DNA from: a virus
Direction: 5' to 3' (one strand)
IMG/VR virus record: IMGVR_UViG_3300046536_000107
Span: 1 to 27,905 of that record
DNA length: 27,905 nt
Under the pieces are notes generated by a model that saw nothing but the letters and a program-made list of their open reading frames with translations, was not told where the DNA came from and searched no databases. Numbering within the stretch: the first letter of the stretch is position 1; each line of letters starts with the position of its first letter. A program made the translations under genes and the position numbers. Positions 2,174-27,385 of the stretch are shown here, one piece after another.

Positions 2174-3604
2174 ATGCCCTTTGACCAGCGTCAACCCCGC
2201 CGGATGCGCGCCTCTATCTATGTGCGCCTGTCCAACGCCGCGACCGAAACGAACCTGAGTAAGGACGGCATGGCTAAAGACCTGCACGCCCTTGCCCGGA
2301 CTCTCAACGCCGACGTGATCGCCGTTCACATCGACGACGGCATATCCGGTTCGGTCCGCGACCGGCATGAGTTCCTTGAGTGGCTGCGCGACGGCCGCGA
2401 GGGCAAGGCTGACATGATCCTTGCTTGGTCAGGCGACCGGCTCACCCGCGAGGGTATCAACGCCGCCGCCATGGTCCTTGACGTCGTCGAGGGCAAAGAC
2501 ACGACGACAGGCAAGGTTGTGCGCCCCGGCGTGCGCTTCGTGTCCTACGACGACCGACTCGACAGTGAGGAAGGCGACGCGTTCCGCTGGCGCTTCGTTA
2601 TCGCCGCCGAGGTCGCTCGCAGCGAGCGACAGCGCATCGTGGCGCGCATGGAAGCACGCGCCCGCCGCATGCTCGACCAGGGGCGCCACGTCGGCCGCGT
2701 CCCGAACGGCTACCGCTTCGACCCTGAGAACCCCGGATTCCTGATCGTGGTTCCCGAAGAGGCCGCCGTCATCAAGGAAGCGGCGCGGCTGATGCTCGCC
2801 GACGTCAAGCCGTCGCAGGTCGCCCGATCGCTGAACGCCGCCGGGGTGACAACCATCATGGGCGCTCCGTGGACGCGCTCAACGTTGGTTCGCAGCGTCA
2901 CGAACCTTGCCAACGCTGGGGAGCCGTTGCGCCCCGGCACGCCCGCACGTGAGGCCATCCTCTCGTATGCCGATGTCACTGAGCTGCGCCGGAAGTTCGC
3001 TCCGGAGAAGACCGGAAAGCGCGGTGGCGCCCGCTCGCCTCGCCAGTCGAAAGCGATGCTCGCCGGTCTTCTCCTGTGCCATGACTGCCAACTGCCGATG
3101 CGCTCGACGTCCGGCCGCTATGTGTGCATGACCGCAGCGGACGGCCGCACGTGCAGCGGCGCCGTTTCCGTGACTAAGGAGATTTCCGAGACCGCCGCCG
3201 AATCCGCCTACCTTCAGCGCTGGGGCCGTGTCGCCGAGACGGTCGCCGAGGTGACCATGCCCGGCGCCGCCGAGCGCGACCGCTTGGAGCGCGAGCACGC
3301 CGCTATCATGGCGCGGCTCGCCGAGAAGCCCACGGCCGCCGACTTCGAGGCGCTGCAAGCCGTTGCCGCTGCCCGCTCGGTATTCGACGAGACGCCGCCC
3401 GAGCGTGTCGTTCGCCGCCGAACCACGGGCCGCACGCTGGCCGACGCGTGGAAGGCAGCAACGACCGAGGACCGGCGCGACCTGTTGGCCAACGCGTATG
3501 AGTACGCCATGTGCTACCCGCGTGGCGTCTCGCCCCGACTCGTGTTCACCGAACGGCCCGAGGTGGCCGAGCTTTCCGTCGACGAGTTCGGCGACGTCAT
3601 CTGA
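2174..3604 (+). CDS. int: Large serine integrase
   Basis: This 476-aa site-specific recombinase should integrate the phage by joining attP to a host attB through a covalent serine-DNA link. The resolvase domain begins at once: IYVRLS places the nucleophile at Ser20 with Arg18 beside it, and the RLTR and SERQRI stretches are typical of the catalytic domain and helix E. A recombinase domain follows (about 170-290). A zinc ribbon has Cys302, Cys305, Cys318 and Cys327, then a coiled-coil region (about 350-400). Length is in the usual range for the family. The gene is a single unit with its own leaderless-type promoter and terminator. No excision partner is recognisable in the window. It differs clearly from the phiC31 integrase as I recall that sequence. 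Confidence 0.93.
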   Translation: MPFDQRQPRRMRASIYVRLSNAATETNLSKDGMAKDLHALARTLNADVIAVHIDDGISGSVRDRHEFLEWLRDGREGKADMILAWSGDRLTREGINAAAMVLDVVEGKDTTTGKVVRPGVRFVSYDDRLDSEEGDAFRWRFVIAAEVARSERQRIVARMEARARRMLDQGRHVGRVPNGYRFDPENPGFLIVVPEEAAVIKEAARLMLADVKPSQVARSLNAAGVTTIMGAPWTRSTLVRSVTNLANAGEPLRPGTPAREAILSYADVTELRRKFAPEKTGKRGGARSPRQSKAMLAGLLLCHDCQLPMRSTSGRYVCMTAADGRTCSGAVSVTKEISETAAESAYLQRWGRVAETVAEVTMPGAAERDRLEREHAAIMARLAEKPTAADFEALQAVAAARSVFDETPPERVVRRRTTGRTLADAWKAATTEDRRDLLANAYEYAMCYPRGVSPRLVFTERPEVAELSVDEFGDVI

Positions 3605-3615
3605 CGACGCCCTCG

Positions 3616-3645
3616 AAAGGCCCCCGAACCAATCGGGGGCCTTTT
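3616..3645 (+). terminator. Intrinsic terminator after int
   Basis: AAAGGCCCCCGA (3616-3627) and TCGGGGGCCTTT (3633-3644) pair over 12 bp with a 5-nt loop, and the T-run continues to 3645. A canonical terminator 11 nt after the int stop. Confidence 0.9.
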
Positions 3646-3660
3646 TGTTGCAAAGATCGC

Positions 3661-3682
3661 GTTTCCCCCCGGTCGACATGTA
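3661..3682 (+). promoter_or_regulatory. 22-bp C-run/ACATGTA box, copy A
   Basis: GTTTCCCCCC, five variable bases, then ACATGTA. The same arrangement occurs at 5801 and 27729. It lies after the int terminator and 36 bp before the first gene of the next operon. A TAGTAC sits near where a -10 would be if TTTCCC acted as a -35 (about 17 nt). It is a promoter or operator candidate for the early-type operon. Confidence 0.6.
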
Positions 3683-3718
3683 TCTAGTACACCCCCGACG
3701 ACCAGGGAGGAAACAGAA

Positions 3719-3919
3719 ATGGATCAGGAAACCGCCGAACACCGCGCGTGTCGCACGCGCACGCCCGAGGAAGACCGCGCCATCCGCGCGGCGACCTTCA
3801 ATCACGCGATGCAGAACCTCGGCCGCATGCTCAGTGGTCGGTTCGCTGTCACGCCGATTCCGGCGCAACAGACCGCCCGCCCGTGCGGCTGCGGTCAGTG
3901 CAAGTGTGGTGGCGCATGA
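3719..3919 (+). CDS. Small protein with C-terminal cysteine cluster
   Basis: This 66-aa protein starts at an ATG with GGGAGGAAA about 8 nt upstream, a very good ribosome site. It is mostly polar and helical. It ends in CGCGQCKCGGA, giving Cys56, Cys58, Cys61 and Cys63, a compact cluster that could bind zinc or another metal; Cys11 is isolated. No family is recognised. It is the first gene of the operon behind box copy A, and its stop overlaps the next start (ATGA), so the two are translationally coupled. Small Cys-rich early phage proteins often bind host proteins, but that is only a suggestion here. Confidence 0.7.
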   Translation: MDQETAEHRACRTRTPEEDRAIRAATFNHAMQNLGRMLSGRFAVTPIPAQQTARPCGCGQCKCGGA

Positions 3920-4215
3920 TCGACGCCGCTGCAATCTCGGTCGACGTGAACAAGGCTGTGACCTTCGTCCGCGCGGAAGCACTGGAAAGGGCGCGCGAGT
4001 TCGTCGAGGGCTTCGCGCCCACGAAGAACGCCCGAGGCTACTCGGACGGCACGATCAGGCCCGACGAGCGTGTAAAGCTGATTATGACGGTCGCCGATTG
4101 GCTGCTGAACGACCAGGCCGCCATCACACGCGCCGTCGAGGAAACCGCCGCAGCGCTCGACGCCTACGGCTATGACTCGGCCGCGTCCTACGTGCGAAGG
4201 CGGATCGAGGCATGA
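3916..4215 (+). CDS. Hypothetical protein, 99 aa
   Basis: The chosen start ATG overlaps the previous stop (ATGA), with GGTGG just upstream. Longer in-frame starts would run through the Cys-cluster gene and are rejected. The protein is helical and charged (for example RAEALERAREFVEGF, then RRRIEA at the end). No membrane segment or known motif is visible. Its own stop overlaps the next ATG, so it is the second gene of a coupled series. Function unknown. Confidence 0.65.
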   Translation: MIDAAAISVDVNKAVTFVRAEALERAREFVEGFAPTKNARGYSDGTIRPDERVKLIMTVADWLLNDQAAITRAVEETAAALDAYGYDSAASYVRRRIEA

Positions 4216-4571
4216 CCGTCATCCCAGACCCGCGCGAGGAGAAGCTACCCGCGTGGGCTCGCCGATAGATCGCCGCGCTGCGCGCCGAGGCCGCATACGA
4301 GCGCGCCCGCGCCGCTACGGCCGTCGAGGACGCGAGGCGCGTCCGGCAAGGCACGAACCCCGACGAGTCGTCGGCCATCCTGCACCCCTACGACGAAGTA
4401 CCCGTAGGGCTCGGCCCTGACGCGCGCGTCCGATTCAAGCTCGGCCGGCACAACTGGGCGGACGTCCGCGTGAACGAAACCGGCAACTCAATCGACGTCA
4501 CCGGCGGTCGAACGCTCCTCATCCGCCCGCAGTGCGGCAACGTCGTCACGATCGCCTCGGAAGGCTGGTAA
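4212..4571 (+). pseudogene. Amber-interrupted actinophage protein gene
   Basis: The frame begins at an ATG that overlaps the previous stop (ATGA). It reads 18 codons (MTVIPDPREEKLPAWARR), hits TAG at 4266-4268, then stays open to a TAA at 4569-4571. The full frame would give 119 residues. The downstream part has a helical stretch (IAALRAEAAYERARAA) and a beta-rich end (VRFKLGRHNWADVRVN, ending ASEGW), a layout I have seen in intact small actinophage proteins. TAG is one change from CAG (Gln), which suits the gap between RR and IAAL. It may be a point mutation, a base-call error, suppressor readthrough, or a downstream restart. The rest of the frame is not decayed, so the lesion is recent or tolerated. 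Confidence 0.7.
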
Positions 4572-4574
4572 CGC

Positions 4575-5222
4575 ATGCCCACGGCACATCACCTCATCGG
4601 CCTGACCGGACACGCCCGCGCTGGTAAGGACAGCGTCGCCGCGTACCTCGTCGAGCACTACGGGTTCGGGCGCGTGGCGTTCGCCGACGCGCTGCGCGAG
4701 GCCGCTCTCGCCCTCGACCCGATCATCGACTACGGCCACGGCCGGCCGTTGATGCGTTGGGAGCGGCGCACCGGCCTGCACGGTCGTCGCTACGTCCGCT
4801 TGTCCGAGTACGTCGAAGCGTTCGGATGGGAGGAAGCAAAAGAGGTCCCCGAGGTCCGCCGCACGCTCCAGCGCTACGGCGTCGCGATCCGTGAGATGGA
4901 CCCGGAATTCTGGATTCGCACCGCCCTCGCGCCCATGGCGTACATGTCGCGGCCCGTGGTCGTGACTGACGTGCGTTTCCCGAACGAGGTCGACGCCGTC
5001 CGCAGCCGAGGCGGTCTGTTCGTCCGAGTTCGCCGGCCTGGCGCGACCGGGAACGGGCACATAAGCGAGCACGCCGTCGACGACATCGCGGCCGACGTCG
5101 ACATCGACAACACGGGCACGCTGGCGGATCTCAGGGACGCTGTCGAGCGCCTGATCGTCGAGCCGTACAACCTGCCGCGCGTCGCCCGCTACAGCGTCCT
5201 CGGTGCTGTCAGGGGGGTCTGA
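4575..5222 (+). CDS. Deoxynucleoside monophosphate kinase
   Basis: The 215-aa product should phosphorylate dNMPs to dNDPs with ATP, supplying precursors for phage DNA synthesis. The P-loop is GHARAGKDS (Gly12 to Ser20), the form seen in T4 gene-1-like kinases. Further matches to that family are an early FADALREAA segment, a central region with YVRLSEYVEAFGW, and VVVTDVRFPNE (around residue 133), which precedes the lid and base-binding part. The ATG is preceded by GGAAGG at about 10 nt. The stop overlaps the next ATG (TGATG). It is the only clear nucleotide-metabolism gene in the window. Confidence 0.85.
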   Translation: MPTAHHLIGLTGHARAGKDSVAAYLVEHYGFGRVAFADALREAALALDPIIDYGHGRPLMRWERRTGLHGRRYVRLSEYVEAFGWEEAKEVPEVRRTLQRYGVAIREMDPEFWIRTALAPMAYMSRPVVVTDVRFPNEVDAVRSRGGLFVRVRRPGATGNGHISEHAVDDIAADVDIDNTGTLADLRDAVERLIVEPYNLPRVARYSVLGAVRGV

Positions 5223-24630: not shown

Positions 24631-24924
24631 ATGGACTCAACGATTACCGCCGCCATCATCGCGACCCTGCCAGGCGCCGCGACACTCGTCCTCGCCGCCC
24701 GCAACCGGCGCCACACCGCCGTAATCCGGGCCGAGGTCAAGAACTCCCACACGACCAATCTCCGCGAGGACGTCGACAGAGTGCTCGACAAGCTTGACGC
24801 CGTGATCGATGGTCAGGCGCGCCACGACTCTGAGATCTCCGGGCTCCGCGCTGACATGCGCGTCGAGCGTAAGGAACGCCTCGCCCTCGCCGAACGCCTT
24901 AAGGAGGCACCGCCCCATGAGTGA
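24631..24924 (+). CDS. DUF2746-like membrane protein; holin candidate
   Basis: 97 aa. One N-terminal transmembrane segment (about residues 5-23; ITAAIIATLPGAATLVLAA) is followed by the RRHTAVIRAEVKNSHTTNLREDVDR stretch (in parts) typical of the DUF2746 family found beside lysins in actinophages, then a charged coiled coil to the end. It starts 3 nt after the tail gene and overlaps the lysin start by 8 nt, so it belongs to the lysis cassette. It may be a holin, a holin partner or a spanin-like factor. Since a two-TM r1t-type holin is encoded at the end of the next frame, an accessory role is as likely as the main holin role. Confidence 0.72.
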   Translation: MDSTITAAIIATLPGAATLVLAARNRRHTAVIRAEVKNSHTTNLREDVDRVLDKLDAVIDGQARHDSEISGLRADMRVERKERLALAERLKEAPPHE

Positions 24925-26641
24925 TGCAGGACTCGACTATGCATGGGCACACCCCGACCTGAACACCGCATGGAACTCGGGCTACCGGTTTATGTGCCGC
25001 TACCTGTCTTGGCTCCCGAACGGGAAGGTCATCACAGTCGCGGAGTATCAGCAGCTCCTCGCGAAGGGCTTCGAGGTCGCCCTGAACTGGGAATATGGCG
25101 CCAAGGACCAGTTGGGCGCCGCCGCGTCCGGCAAGCTGCACGCGGCCGAGGCCGTCCGCCAGGCGCGCGCGCTCGGGTACCCGGCAGGGAAGACGATCTA
25201 TTTCTCGGCCGACTTCGACGCGACCGAGGCGCAGCAAGCCCCGATCAACGCCTACATGGCAGCCGCGAAGGCGATTCTTCACGCGGCCGGCTACCGCATC
25301 GGCATCTACGGGGGCTTCTACGTCGTCAAGCGCGCGTTCGACGCGGGCGTCACTGACGACGGATGGCAGACCTACGGGTGGTCCGGCGGTCAGTGGGACT
25401 CGCGCGCTGCGATCCGCCAGGACCACAACGAGATTCAGTGCGGCGGCGCGGACTGCGACCACAACACCCGCGTAGGCGCCACCTACCTCGCCGGCGGGCA
25501 CTCGGCCGCCCCGGCTCCGCCCCCCCCGGCTCCGCACCCGCCTGCGCCGACGCCGCCCCCGCCCTCGACCGCGCGGACCTACACGGTCCAGAGCGGCGAT
25601 TCGCTGTCGGGCATCGCGGCGAGGTTCGGGATCGGGGATTGGCACACGCTCTACAACGCGAACGTGCGTGTCATCGGCTCAAACCCGAACCTGATCCGCG
25701 CGGGTCAGGTGCTCACGATCCCGGGGGCCTCCGCGCCGGCCCCGCCGCCCCCGCCGGCTCCCGCTCCGCCCCCGCCGCCCCCGACGACCACGAAGAGTGT
25801 CCCGAAGACCTACACGGTCCAGAGCGGCGACAACTTGTCGGCCATCGCGGCGAAGTTCGGGATCAGGGATTGGCACACGCTCTACAACGCGAACGCGCAC
25901 GTCGTCGGTTCGAACCCGAACCTGATCCGCGCCGGCGAAGTGCTGACGATCCCTGGTCAGTTCGTGACCGTCACGGTCAAGGCCGCCGCTGCTCCAATCG
26001 TGCGCGCCGTCGCGCCGCCGGCCGTCACGCCCAACGTTGCGCCGCCGCCTCCCCCGCCGCCGCCGCCGCCGGCCCCGGTCGCGGTCGAGGCGCCGGCCCC
26101 CGCTCCGCCGCCGGCCCCGGTCGTAGTCGAGGCGCCGGCCCCCGCTCCGCCGCCGCCGGCTCCCGCCACGCCAGTCGAGAGCCCGGCTCCGCCGCCGGCT
26201 CCAGCCCCCGCAGCGCCCGCCGAGGCACCTGCCCCGGCCCCTGTGCCCGCGCCCGCCAGCGAGGCGCACAGCGCCCCCTCATGGACCGACGAGATTACGG
26301 CCGCCGTGGTCCGGGCCGAGGCGATCATTCACCACCTGCCCACCGTCGAGGTTCCCGTCGTTCCCGACGACCTCGCGCCCGCACCGGAAGGAAGCCCCCG
26401 CGCTATGTTCACCCGCGCCTATTGGCAGTACATCGCAGAGCGTTCGATCAAGACGTTCGTTCAGTCCCTCGTCGCCCTGCTGGGCATCGGGCAGACGAAC
26501 ATGATCTCCGTCAACTGGTCGAACATGGCGGCCGTCGCGGGTAGTGCGGCGCTCGTCTCCGTGCTGACCTCGATCAGCTCGCTGTCGGGCTCAGCGGTCG
26601 TCGAGCCGGTCGACACGCACCCCTCGGCCAACCTCAAGTAA
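24917..26641 (+). CDS. Endolysin: DUF1906 catalytic domain, two LysM, Pro/Ala linker, fused r1t-type holin
   Basis: 574 aa, ATG with AAGGAGG upstream. Residues 1-200 are a DUF1906 glycosidase-like domain (start GLDYAWAHPDLNTAWNSGYRF; TIYFSADFDAT and YRIGIYGGFYVVKRA mark the barrel strands). Two LysM wall-binding domains (about 221-270 and 298-348) each start YTVQSGD and end VLTIPG. A long Pro/Ala region follows (about 355-460). The last 78 residues (497-574, from MFTRAYWQYIAERSIKTFVQS) have the sequence and two hydrophobic segments of an r1t-type holin. Lysin and holin are normally separate genes, so this is a fusion or a locus with an internal start. A dispersed box lies at 26027 in the linker. 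Confidence 0.88.
   Translation: MSDAGLDYAWAHPDLNTAWNSGYRFMCRYLSWLPNGKVITVAEYQQLLAKGFEVALNWEYGAKDQLGAAASGKLHAAEAVRQARALGYPAGKTIYFSADFDATEAQQAPINAYMAAAKAILHAAGYRIGIYGGFYVVKRAFDAGVTDDGWQTYGWSGGQWDSRAAIRQDHNEIQCGGADCDHNTRVGATYLAGGHSAAPAPPPPAPHPPAPTPPPPSTARTYTVQSGDSLSGIAARFGIGDWHTLYNANVRVIGSNPNLIRAGQVLTIPGASAPAPPPPPAPAPPPPPPTTTKSVPKTYTVQSGDNLSAIAAKFGIRDWHTLYNANAHVVGSNPNLIRAGEVLTIPGQFVTVTVKAAAAPIVRAVAPPAVTPNVAPPPPPPPPPPAPVAVEAPAPAPPPAPVVVEAPAPAPPPPAPATPVESPAPPPAPAPAAPAEAPAPAPVPAPASEAHSAPSWTDEITAAVVRAEAIIHHLPTVEVPVVPDDLAPAPEGSPRAMFTRAYWQYIAERSIKTFVQSLVALLGIGQTNMISVNWSNMAAVAGSAALVSVLTSISSLSGSAVVEPVDTHPSANLK
25580..25957 (+). repeat. Tandem LysM duplication
   Basis: The two LysM coding segments repeat with a period of 231 bp (first copy from about 25580, second from about 25811). 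They share long exact stretches, for instance the bases for YTVQSGD and for DWHTLYNAN. Both copies are near-identical at DNA level, so the duplication is recent or is kept similar by recombination. Confidence 0.85.
26027..26038 (+). promoter_or_regulatory. Dispersed 12-bp box, copy 7 (in the lysin linker)
   Basis: Exact ACGCCCAACGTT in the Pro/Ala linker coding part, encoding TPNV. The nine following bases match those after the copy in the portal gene. Confidence 0.5.
26405..26641 (+). CDS. Possible separate r1t-type holin from an internal start
   Basis: An in-frame ATG at 26405 has GGAAGGAAG (26386-26394) 10 nt upstream, a convincing ribosome site inside the lysin frame. Translation from it gives 78 aa: an amphipathic start (MFTRAYWQYIAERSIKTF), a first membrane segment with SLVALLGIG, a polar turn with Asn and Trp, a second segment (AAVAGSAALVSVLTSISSL) and a short polar tail. 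This equals the usual length and layout of r1t-type holins, which make the membrane hole that releases the lysin. It is the same reading frame as the lysin, so both a fusion and a free holin may be made. Confidence 0.6.
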   Translation: MFTRAYWQYIAERSIKTFVQSLVALLGIGQTNMISVNWSNMAAVAGSAALVSVLTSISSLSGSAVVEPVDTHPSANLK

Positions 26642-26662: not shown

Positions 26663-26706
26663 ACGCCCCGCCTAGCTGCCGGATTCCGGCGCTGGGCGGG
26701 GCGTTT
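26663..26706 (+). terminator. Terminator at the end of the lysis cassette
   Basis: ACGCCCCGCC (26663-26672) pairs with GGCGGGGCGT (26695-26704). The stem continues inwards through AGC/GCT and CCGG/CCGG with small bulges, and a short T-run follows. This probably ends the late transcript. Confidence 0.8.
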
Positions 26707-26710
26707 CGCT

Positions 26711-26746
26711 TTGCGATAGCTAGGAGTCGCGCCCTACGATAAGCGC
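26711..26746 (+). promoter_or_regulatory. Promoter of the 26747 gene, leaderless type
   Basis: TTGCGA (26711-26716) and TACGAT (26735-26740) are 18 nt apart, and the -10 ends 6 nt before the ATG. There is no Shine-Dalgarno next to the ATG. The arrangement copies that of the integrase gene. Confidence 0.5.
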
Positions 26747-27385
26747 ATGCCTACTAAGCGTCAGATCGAAGCGGAAATTAAGCGGCAACTCCGCGCCATC
26801 CGGGCACTTCCGGATGATGACCGCGAACGCAAGACGGCGTTGCTGCGCGACCTCGCTGAGAGCACCGTCGAGTTTCGCGAACACTTCGCGCTTAGCTCCG
26901 GTGACGTCGACTGGGCCGGCCGAACGGGCGCCTACCGTGCCGAGATCGCAGAACTGTACTTAGAGGCGGGCTTCCCGCAGGCCGAAGCGAAGGCCATTCA
27001 GAAACTTACGCGCTATCACATCGCCAACACTCTCCGTCAGCGTCTGTCCACCGACGAAATCGAGGCGATAGGGCTGCGCGCCGAGTCGCCGCGCGAACGT
27101 CAGACCGAGCTGCGCTCGCGCACGGCCGCTATCGTCGCCGCCGCCGCCGTGTCTGCCGTCAGCGCTGGCGTCCCTGAGACGGCCGAGGAGCGCATTGCGT
27201 ACCTGCATGGTGTCCTTGCCACCCTCAACGAGGTCGGGCCGCTCAGCGAGGCAGAGAGGGGCAGCAAGGACTACGTTCCGCACTACCGCACCGCTAAGAC
27301 GCTGCTGGACCAGATTGTTCGCACTGCCCGCAACATCGCGAAGACGTGGCCAGCGCCAGAGGGCGAAGACCCCACCATCGCGTGA
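26747..27385 (+). CDS. Unrecognised 212-aa protein; candidate lysogeny regulator
   Basis: I cannot assign a family. The protein is soluble, mostly helical and strongly charged. It has a basic start (MPTKRQIEAEIKRQLRAI), a central part that could include a helix-turn-helix (about 64-105: AEIAELYLEAGFPQAEA, KLTRYHIANTLRQRL), an Ala/Val helix (about 127-140), and a C-terminal part with VPHYRTAKTLLDQIVRTARNI. It stands alone between a late terminator and its own terminator, with a leaderless-type promoter like that of int. It is followed by iteron-like repeats. Repressor genes often show such isolation and leaderless messages. This is inference from context; a replication function is an alternative because of the iterons. 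Confidence 0.6.
   Translation: MPTKRQIEAEIKRQLRAIRALPDDDRERKTALLRDLAESTVEFREHFALSSGDVDWAGRTGAYRAEIAELYLEAGFPQAEAKAIQKLTRYHIANTLRQRLSTDEIEAIGLRAESPRERQTELRSRTAAIVAAAAVSAVSAGVPETAEERIAYLHGVLATLNEVGPLSEAERGSKDYVPHYRTAKTLLDQIVRTARNIAKTWPAPEGEDPTIA

Follow-up and report, generated by a model that had tools for sequence, protein, structure and literature searches.

An in-frame endolysin-r1t holin fusion with a conserved predicted internal start in a small group of soil phages

Results

Organisation of the lysis region

The window, by which we mean the whole 27,905-nucleotide stretch of DNA analysed here, is a 27.9-kb virus record (IMG/VR IMGVR_UViG_3300046536_000107) carrying terminase, portal, tape measure, distal tail and minor tail genes in that order and, 3′ of the tail genes, a single frame that runs from a lysin into a holin (Table 1). 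The nearest relatives of its terminase (~60%) are those of Arthrobacter, Microbacterium and Curtobacterium phages, which suggests that the host is probably an actinobacterium.

Table 1. Features of the lysis region, in window coordinates
Feature	Position	Strand	Basis or remark
Overlapping upstream gene, 97-aa DUF2746/LysF1b-like protein	24631-24924	+	One N-terminal TM (residue 5), charged tail
Main-start ribosome site AAGGAGG	24901-24907	+	Strong; duplex -11.4 kcal/mol, top of 247 window ATGs
Lysin-holin fusion ORF, 574 aa	24917-26641	+	Translation, Pfam, PHROG; same fusion in L001-L004
Rv2525c/DUF1906 glycoside-hydrolase-like catalytic domain (PF08924)	24917-25516	+	Pfam E 3.9e-25, residues 18-174
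Two LysM wall-binding domains, Pro-rich spacer between	25577-25957	+	PF01476 (Pfam)
Pro/Ala/Val-rich linker, 149 aa	25958-26404	+	75-149 aa among relatives; sequence variable in alignment
Internal ribosome-site-like GGAAGGA (codons GAA GGA)	26386-26392	+	Invariant in five relatives
r1t holin domain; predicted free 78-aa holin from ATG 26405	26405-26641	+	PF16945, residues 499-564
GC-rich hairpin, then T-containing stretch, after stop	26684-26712	+	Pattern match only; count not above shuffles

A preliminary description of this DNA, made from the sequence alone, had reported one open frame from lysin to holin, and the 574 codons from the ATG at 24917 to the TAA at 26639-26641 are indeed free of stops. 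The architecture that it gave, DUF1906, two LysM, a Pro/Ala linker and a holin, was likewise recovered by Pfam as PF08924, LysM (twice) and PF16945. The DUF1906 domain also matches the solved Rv2525c structures 4pmq and 4pmn (E about 3e-5), and its family and genome position suggest that it is a putative peptidoglycan hydrolase. The assignment of the C-terminus to the r1t holins, for which a search against PF16945 had been proposed, holds: the last 78 residues in isolation match this family with E 3.5e-22 and 78.7 bits (cut-off 26.9), over profile positions 1-66 of 72, and the holin part also matches PHROG holin family phrog_443 (E 4.9e-20). AlphaFold gives the holin part a two-helix hairpin (residues 4-28 and 38-61) at a modest pLDDT of 64; the model of the full-length fusion is too weak to be read beyond secondary structure. 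Three K/R lie among the 17 N-terminal holin residues, and an N-in/C-in orientation is taken from the r1t family.

The start of this frame is overlapped by 8 nt by the 3′ end of the upstream gene, whose product shows 44% identity to Streptomyces phage proteins annotated as DUF2746. Against PF10874 the window copy scores below the cut-off of 23 bits (E 0.0021, 18.9 bits), and its counterpart in a related contig, L001, scores above it (E 4.6e-6, 27.4 bits). A hydropathy scan of the window found no other obvious TM gene of a lysis cassette.

These two families meet in the F1 mycobacteriophages Girr and NormanBulbieJr, in which deletions show that the holin-like proteins LysF1a and LysF1b are both needed for efficient lysis (PMC13056207). 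NormanBulbieJr gp32 (LysF1a) matches PF16945 (6e-22) and shares 42% identity with the window holin across 59 residues; gp33 (LysF1b) matches PF10874 (1e-12). Thus the window carries a relative of one member of an experimentally tested pair of holins as the tail of its lysin, and a probable relative of the other in the upstream gene. The F1 phages likewise place a two-TM PF16945 protein and a one-TM PF10874 protein in the lysis cassette, but there the two-TM gene is separate and follows lysin A and lysin B, whereas in the window the two-TM protein is the lysin C-terminus and the one-TM gene comes first.

The same fusion in related contigs

The in-frame fusion is present in four further IMG/VR contigs, derived from three metagenome data sets, with protein identities to the window fusion of 77% (L001), 70% (L002), 72% (L003) and 55% (L004); its carriers are a small group of soil phages. 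The fusions vary in how many LysM domains they have, and in L004 two PG_binding_1 domains (PF01471) replace LysM, but all keep an open frame into the holin. PF16945 was matched above its cut-off once in each of the five contigs, by the fused copy, and our search of these contigs for a second, separate r1t holin found none. In another contig, L005, a DUF1906-type domain lies within a 700-aa frame (2870-4972) that has additional N-terminal sequence.

Beyond this group the arrangement appears to be rare. The r1t loci surveyed in viral contigs and genomes numbered 97. A lysin fusion was found at two of these, both belonging to the group, and the other 95 viral or prophage loci carried no recognisable lysin in frame. 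When ~1190 Actinomycetota genomes were sampled in partly overlapping draws, and their r1t loci read on both strands, no recognisable in-frame lysin was seen at the 62 loci examined of 66 fetched; the long open frames at those loci were mostly of non-coding-like composition or were tandem holins. A scan of genome contigs for the fusion gave no match.

Other elongated r1t frames were met in these surveys. The r1t locus of L138 has a 168-aa extension, and in L197 (1492-2154) the holin bears a C-terminal extension of about 150 residues. The holin of Rhodococcus phage Sleepyhead (gp21; L144, 3438-4001) combines two r1t domains in tandem within a single protein, and tandem r1t-like matches in one frame also occur at the genome loci L173, L171 and L179.

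The internal start site

The preliminary description had noted an internal ribosome site, GGAAGGAAG, and this sequence does lie 10 nt before an in-frame ATG at 26405. The codon that starts there, Met 497 of the fusion, corresponds in the alignment to the Met with which free-standing r1t holins begin. Taken alone the window site is of moderate strength, with a duplex to the anti-Shine-Dalgarno sequence of -5.7 kcal/mol (rank 35 of 247 window ATGs), and of the 88 start codons that occur in frame inside 11 window ORFs, 2 have a comparable site in front of them (1 of 10 among ATGs). Prediction of such starts also yields false positives, as in 15% of portal genes (PMC9430671).

Comparison of the five relatives gives the proposed site strong support. 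The codons CCG GAA GGA are identical in all five while the linker around them varies, the start codon is kept (ATG in four; GTG in L004), and the spacing from GGAAGGA to it is fixed at 12 nt. In L004, which is without the neighbouring HLPTVEVPV segment, the site is still present and its duplex is stronger (-8.0 kcal/mol). Both codons are uncommon in these genes: GAA makes up 12 of 78 Glu codons and GGA 13 of 201 Gly codons when the five junction copies of each are counted, and ~10% and ~4%, respectively, when the junction is left out. At 24 invariant Gly columns, GGA is used by all five sequences at the junction only and by at most one sequence elsewhere; GAA is less telling, in that another Glu column has GAA in four of the five. 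These counts come from five sequences that are related to one another and are not independent events. At 90-97% of positions in each gene the mRNA is predicted to be more structured locally than at the site, a difference that may partly reflect the base composition of the holin part. Because rare codons persist at one functional spacing while their surroundings diverge, the candidate site is, by its conservation, more than a chance occurrence.

Discussion

A lysis gene with two predicted products

In textbook lysis the enzyme and the hole are separate; timing depends on the hole alone, and the enzyme escapes by diffusion. The arrangement described here, a conserved natural fusion of a lysin to a holin family with a demonstrated role in lysis, poses the question of whether an endolysin can function when attached to its holin. 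It also raises the questions of what size or mobility r1t holes need to have, and of whether lysis time is set by the proportion of fused to free holin.

We think it reasonably probable that this is a two-product lysis gene of a tailed phage of actinobacterial type, encoding a holin-tethered lysin and a free holin. Translation from 24917 would yield a lysin ending in a full r1t (LysF1a-family) holin, and internal initiation at 26405 would yield the same holin alone; comparative sequence evidence makes this two-product step a well supported prediction. The middling strength of the internal site weighs against it, and the conservation of Pro-Ala-Pro-Glu-Gly could reflect constraint on the protein, though the rare codons would then be unexplained.

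Beyond the sequence evidence, we infer that both products appear in the cell and mix there, that the enzyme works while tethered, and that lysis timing is affected. Since the long and short products carry the same membrane hairpin they should co-assemble, with the DUF2746/LysF1b-like protein as a second, partner holin component. The positive charge on the N-terminal side of the hairpin and the lack of an apparent signal peptide suggest that the lysin should stay cytoplasmic, so that the enzyme would be anchored at the cytoplasmic side of the membrane for as long as the latter is intact. On triggering of the holin complex, the lysin, already at the lesion, would pass through, and the long Pro/Ala linker would let the still-tethered enzyme reach the wall; fully extended, at 0.31 nm per residue, the linkers of the group would span ~23-46 nm, in principle enough to do so. 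More tentatively, we suggest that co-assembly of free holin and tethered lysin could pre-load the enzyme at the future hole, where it would act while attached to the membrane, making lysis local and coupling the dose of lysin to that of holin. If the fusion and its conserved start do operate in this way, these phages could time and aim host lysis differently.

Alternative readings

The frame is open throughout, and it could be that only the full-length protein is made, serving as both holin and lysin, with GGAAGGA a relic or a protein-level constraint. The moderate strength of the internal site would fit this, as would the published holin-endolysin fusion of Clostridium sporogenes, for which no internal start is reported (PMC9527704). 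We nevertheless consider a single product unlikely: the rare codons and the start codon are kept in five diverged relatives, even in L004 where the surrounding linker segment is missing, and the start lies exactly at the r1t family's own start.

Alternatively, two products could be made of which the long form is mainly a brake, delaying the holes formed by the short form, so that their ratio sets lysis time. This is a variant of the two-product reading that we prefer, and both may hold at once. The existence of dual-start holin genes is established (mentioned in PMC9671378), and the hairpin is common to the long and short forms; here, however, the N-terminal extension is a whole enzyme and not a short charged tail, and we give this version about the same low probability as the previous one.

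The preliminary description had proposed three outcomes, a lysin tethered on the cytoplasmic face, a dual-product locus, and processing in the linker. Our analysis favours the second, with the lysin of the fusion presumably tethered as in the first, and lends no support to the third, in which a host or phage protease would cut the linker and free the lysin from the holin. A long, exposed Pro/Ala linker might invite cleavage, and for the Clostridium fusion this has been put forward as one option (PMC9527704); but the linker varies in length (75-149 aa) and in sequence, and across all five relatives we found no conserved linker motif besides the start-site segment, so we regard cleavage as distinctly improbable.

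An assembly or sequencing artefact, such as a missed stop or frameshift, is to all intents ruled out by the same fusion in four other contigs, 55-77% identical, from three metagenome data sets, and the C-terminus does match a holin family; both of the weaknesses that the preliminary description had allowed for are thus excluded.

Relation to known systems and a possible origin

These comparisons show the conserved fusion, with its conserved predicted internal start, to be real. Its two elements, a holin-endolysin fusion and a two-product endolysin gene, are already known separately, and the rarity first claimed for it, holin and lysin being described as nearly always separate, somewhat overstates its novelty in view of the published Clostridium fusion, which is of another family and order (PMC9527704). 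That TpeE-family holin-endolysin is likewise a natural in-frame fusion in one gene, but its holin is N-terminal, with a single TM and an amphipathic helix, and belongs to another family; in the window the holin is C-terminal, of the two-TM r1t family, and accompanied by the conserved internal start. A further fused holin-endolysin, possibly natural, is reported for RL phage (Basit 2021).

Endolysin genes with in-frame internal starts are known from experiment (PMC9430671; Ms6 lysA, PMC3111421). They too use one frame and an internal ribosome site to give a C-terminal second product; their known second products, however, are wall-binding or shorter enzyme forms, whereas the predicted second product here is a holin. 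The Enc34 and M4Lys endolysins likewise combine an N-terminal catalytic domain with a C-terminal membrane segment, and overproduced M4Lys lyses cells without a holin (PMC8943055, PMC7143992). In contrast to the window protein, these enzymes have a TMD that is not reported to belong to a known holin family, and no internal start is described; Enc34 also has a separate holin-like gene. A C-terminal r1t holin-lysin fusion with an internal start was not met in the literature that we searched, which lay mostly outside subscription journals.

Contig L024 (IMGVR_UViG_645951842_000001) may indicate how the fusion arose. The last 8 nt of its DUF1906 lysin gene (PF08924, E 9e-33) overlap the beginning of a free r1t holin gene, whose ribosome site AAGGAGG sits inside the lysin frame. 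L024 resembles the window in having the same lysin and holin families, adjacent to one another, with the holin ribosome site within the lysin, and differs in that the two frames are separate and overlap by 8 nt. If the lysin stop were lost from a locus of this kind, and the frames matched, the result would be a fused gene with its start signal intact; the fusion most likely arose by stop loss where a holin start and ribosome site already overlapped the lysin end. Streptomyces phage R4, considered separately as a pre-fusion state, was rejected: its gene order is the same, but the small gene encodes DUF7439 and not r1t.

Sequences 3′ of the fusion

Sequence similar to the hairpin region at 26684-26712 follows the fusion in all five contigs. 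Directly 3′ of the lysin-holin gene the five contigs are also similar around the start of an ORF of 212 aa (window 26747-27385), which gave no match in PHROG and none above the cut-off in Pfam. Past the lysis region, the window contains seven direct repeats of the AGGGTCGCA type between 27385 and 27720, together with several inverted copies (TGCGACCCT).
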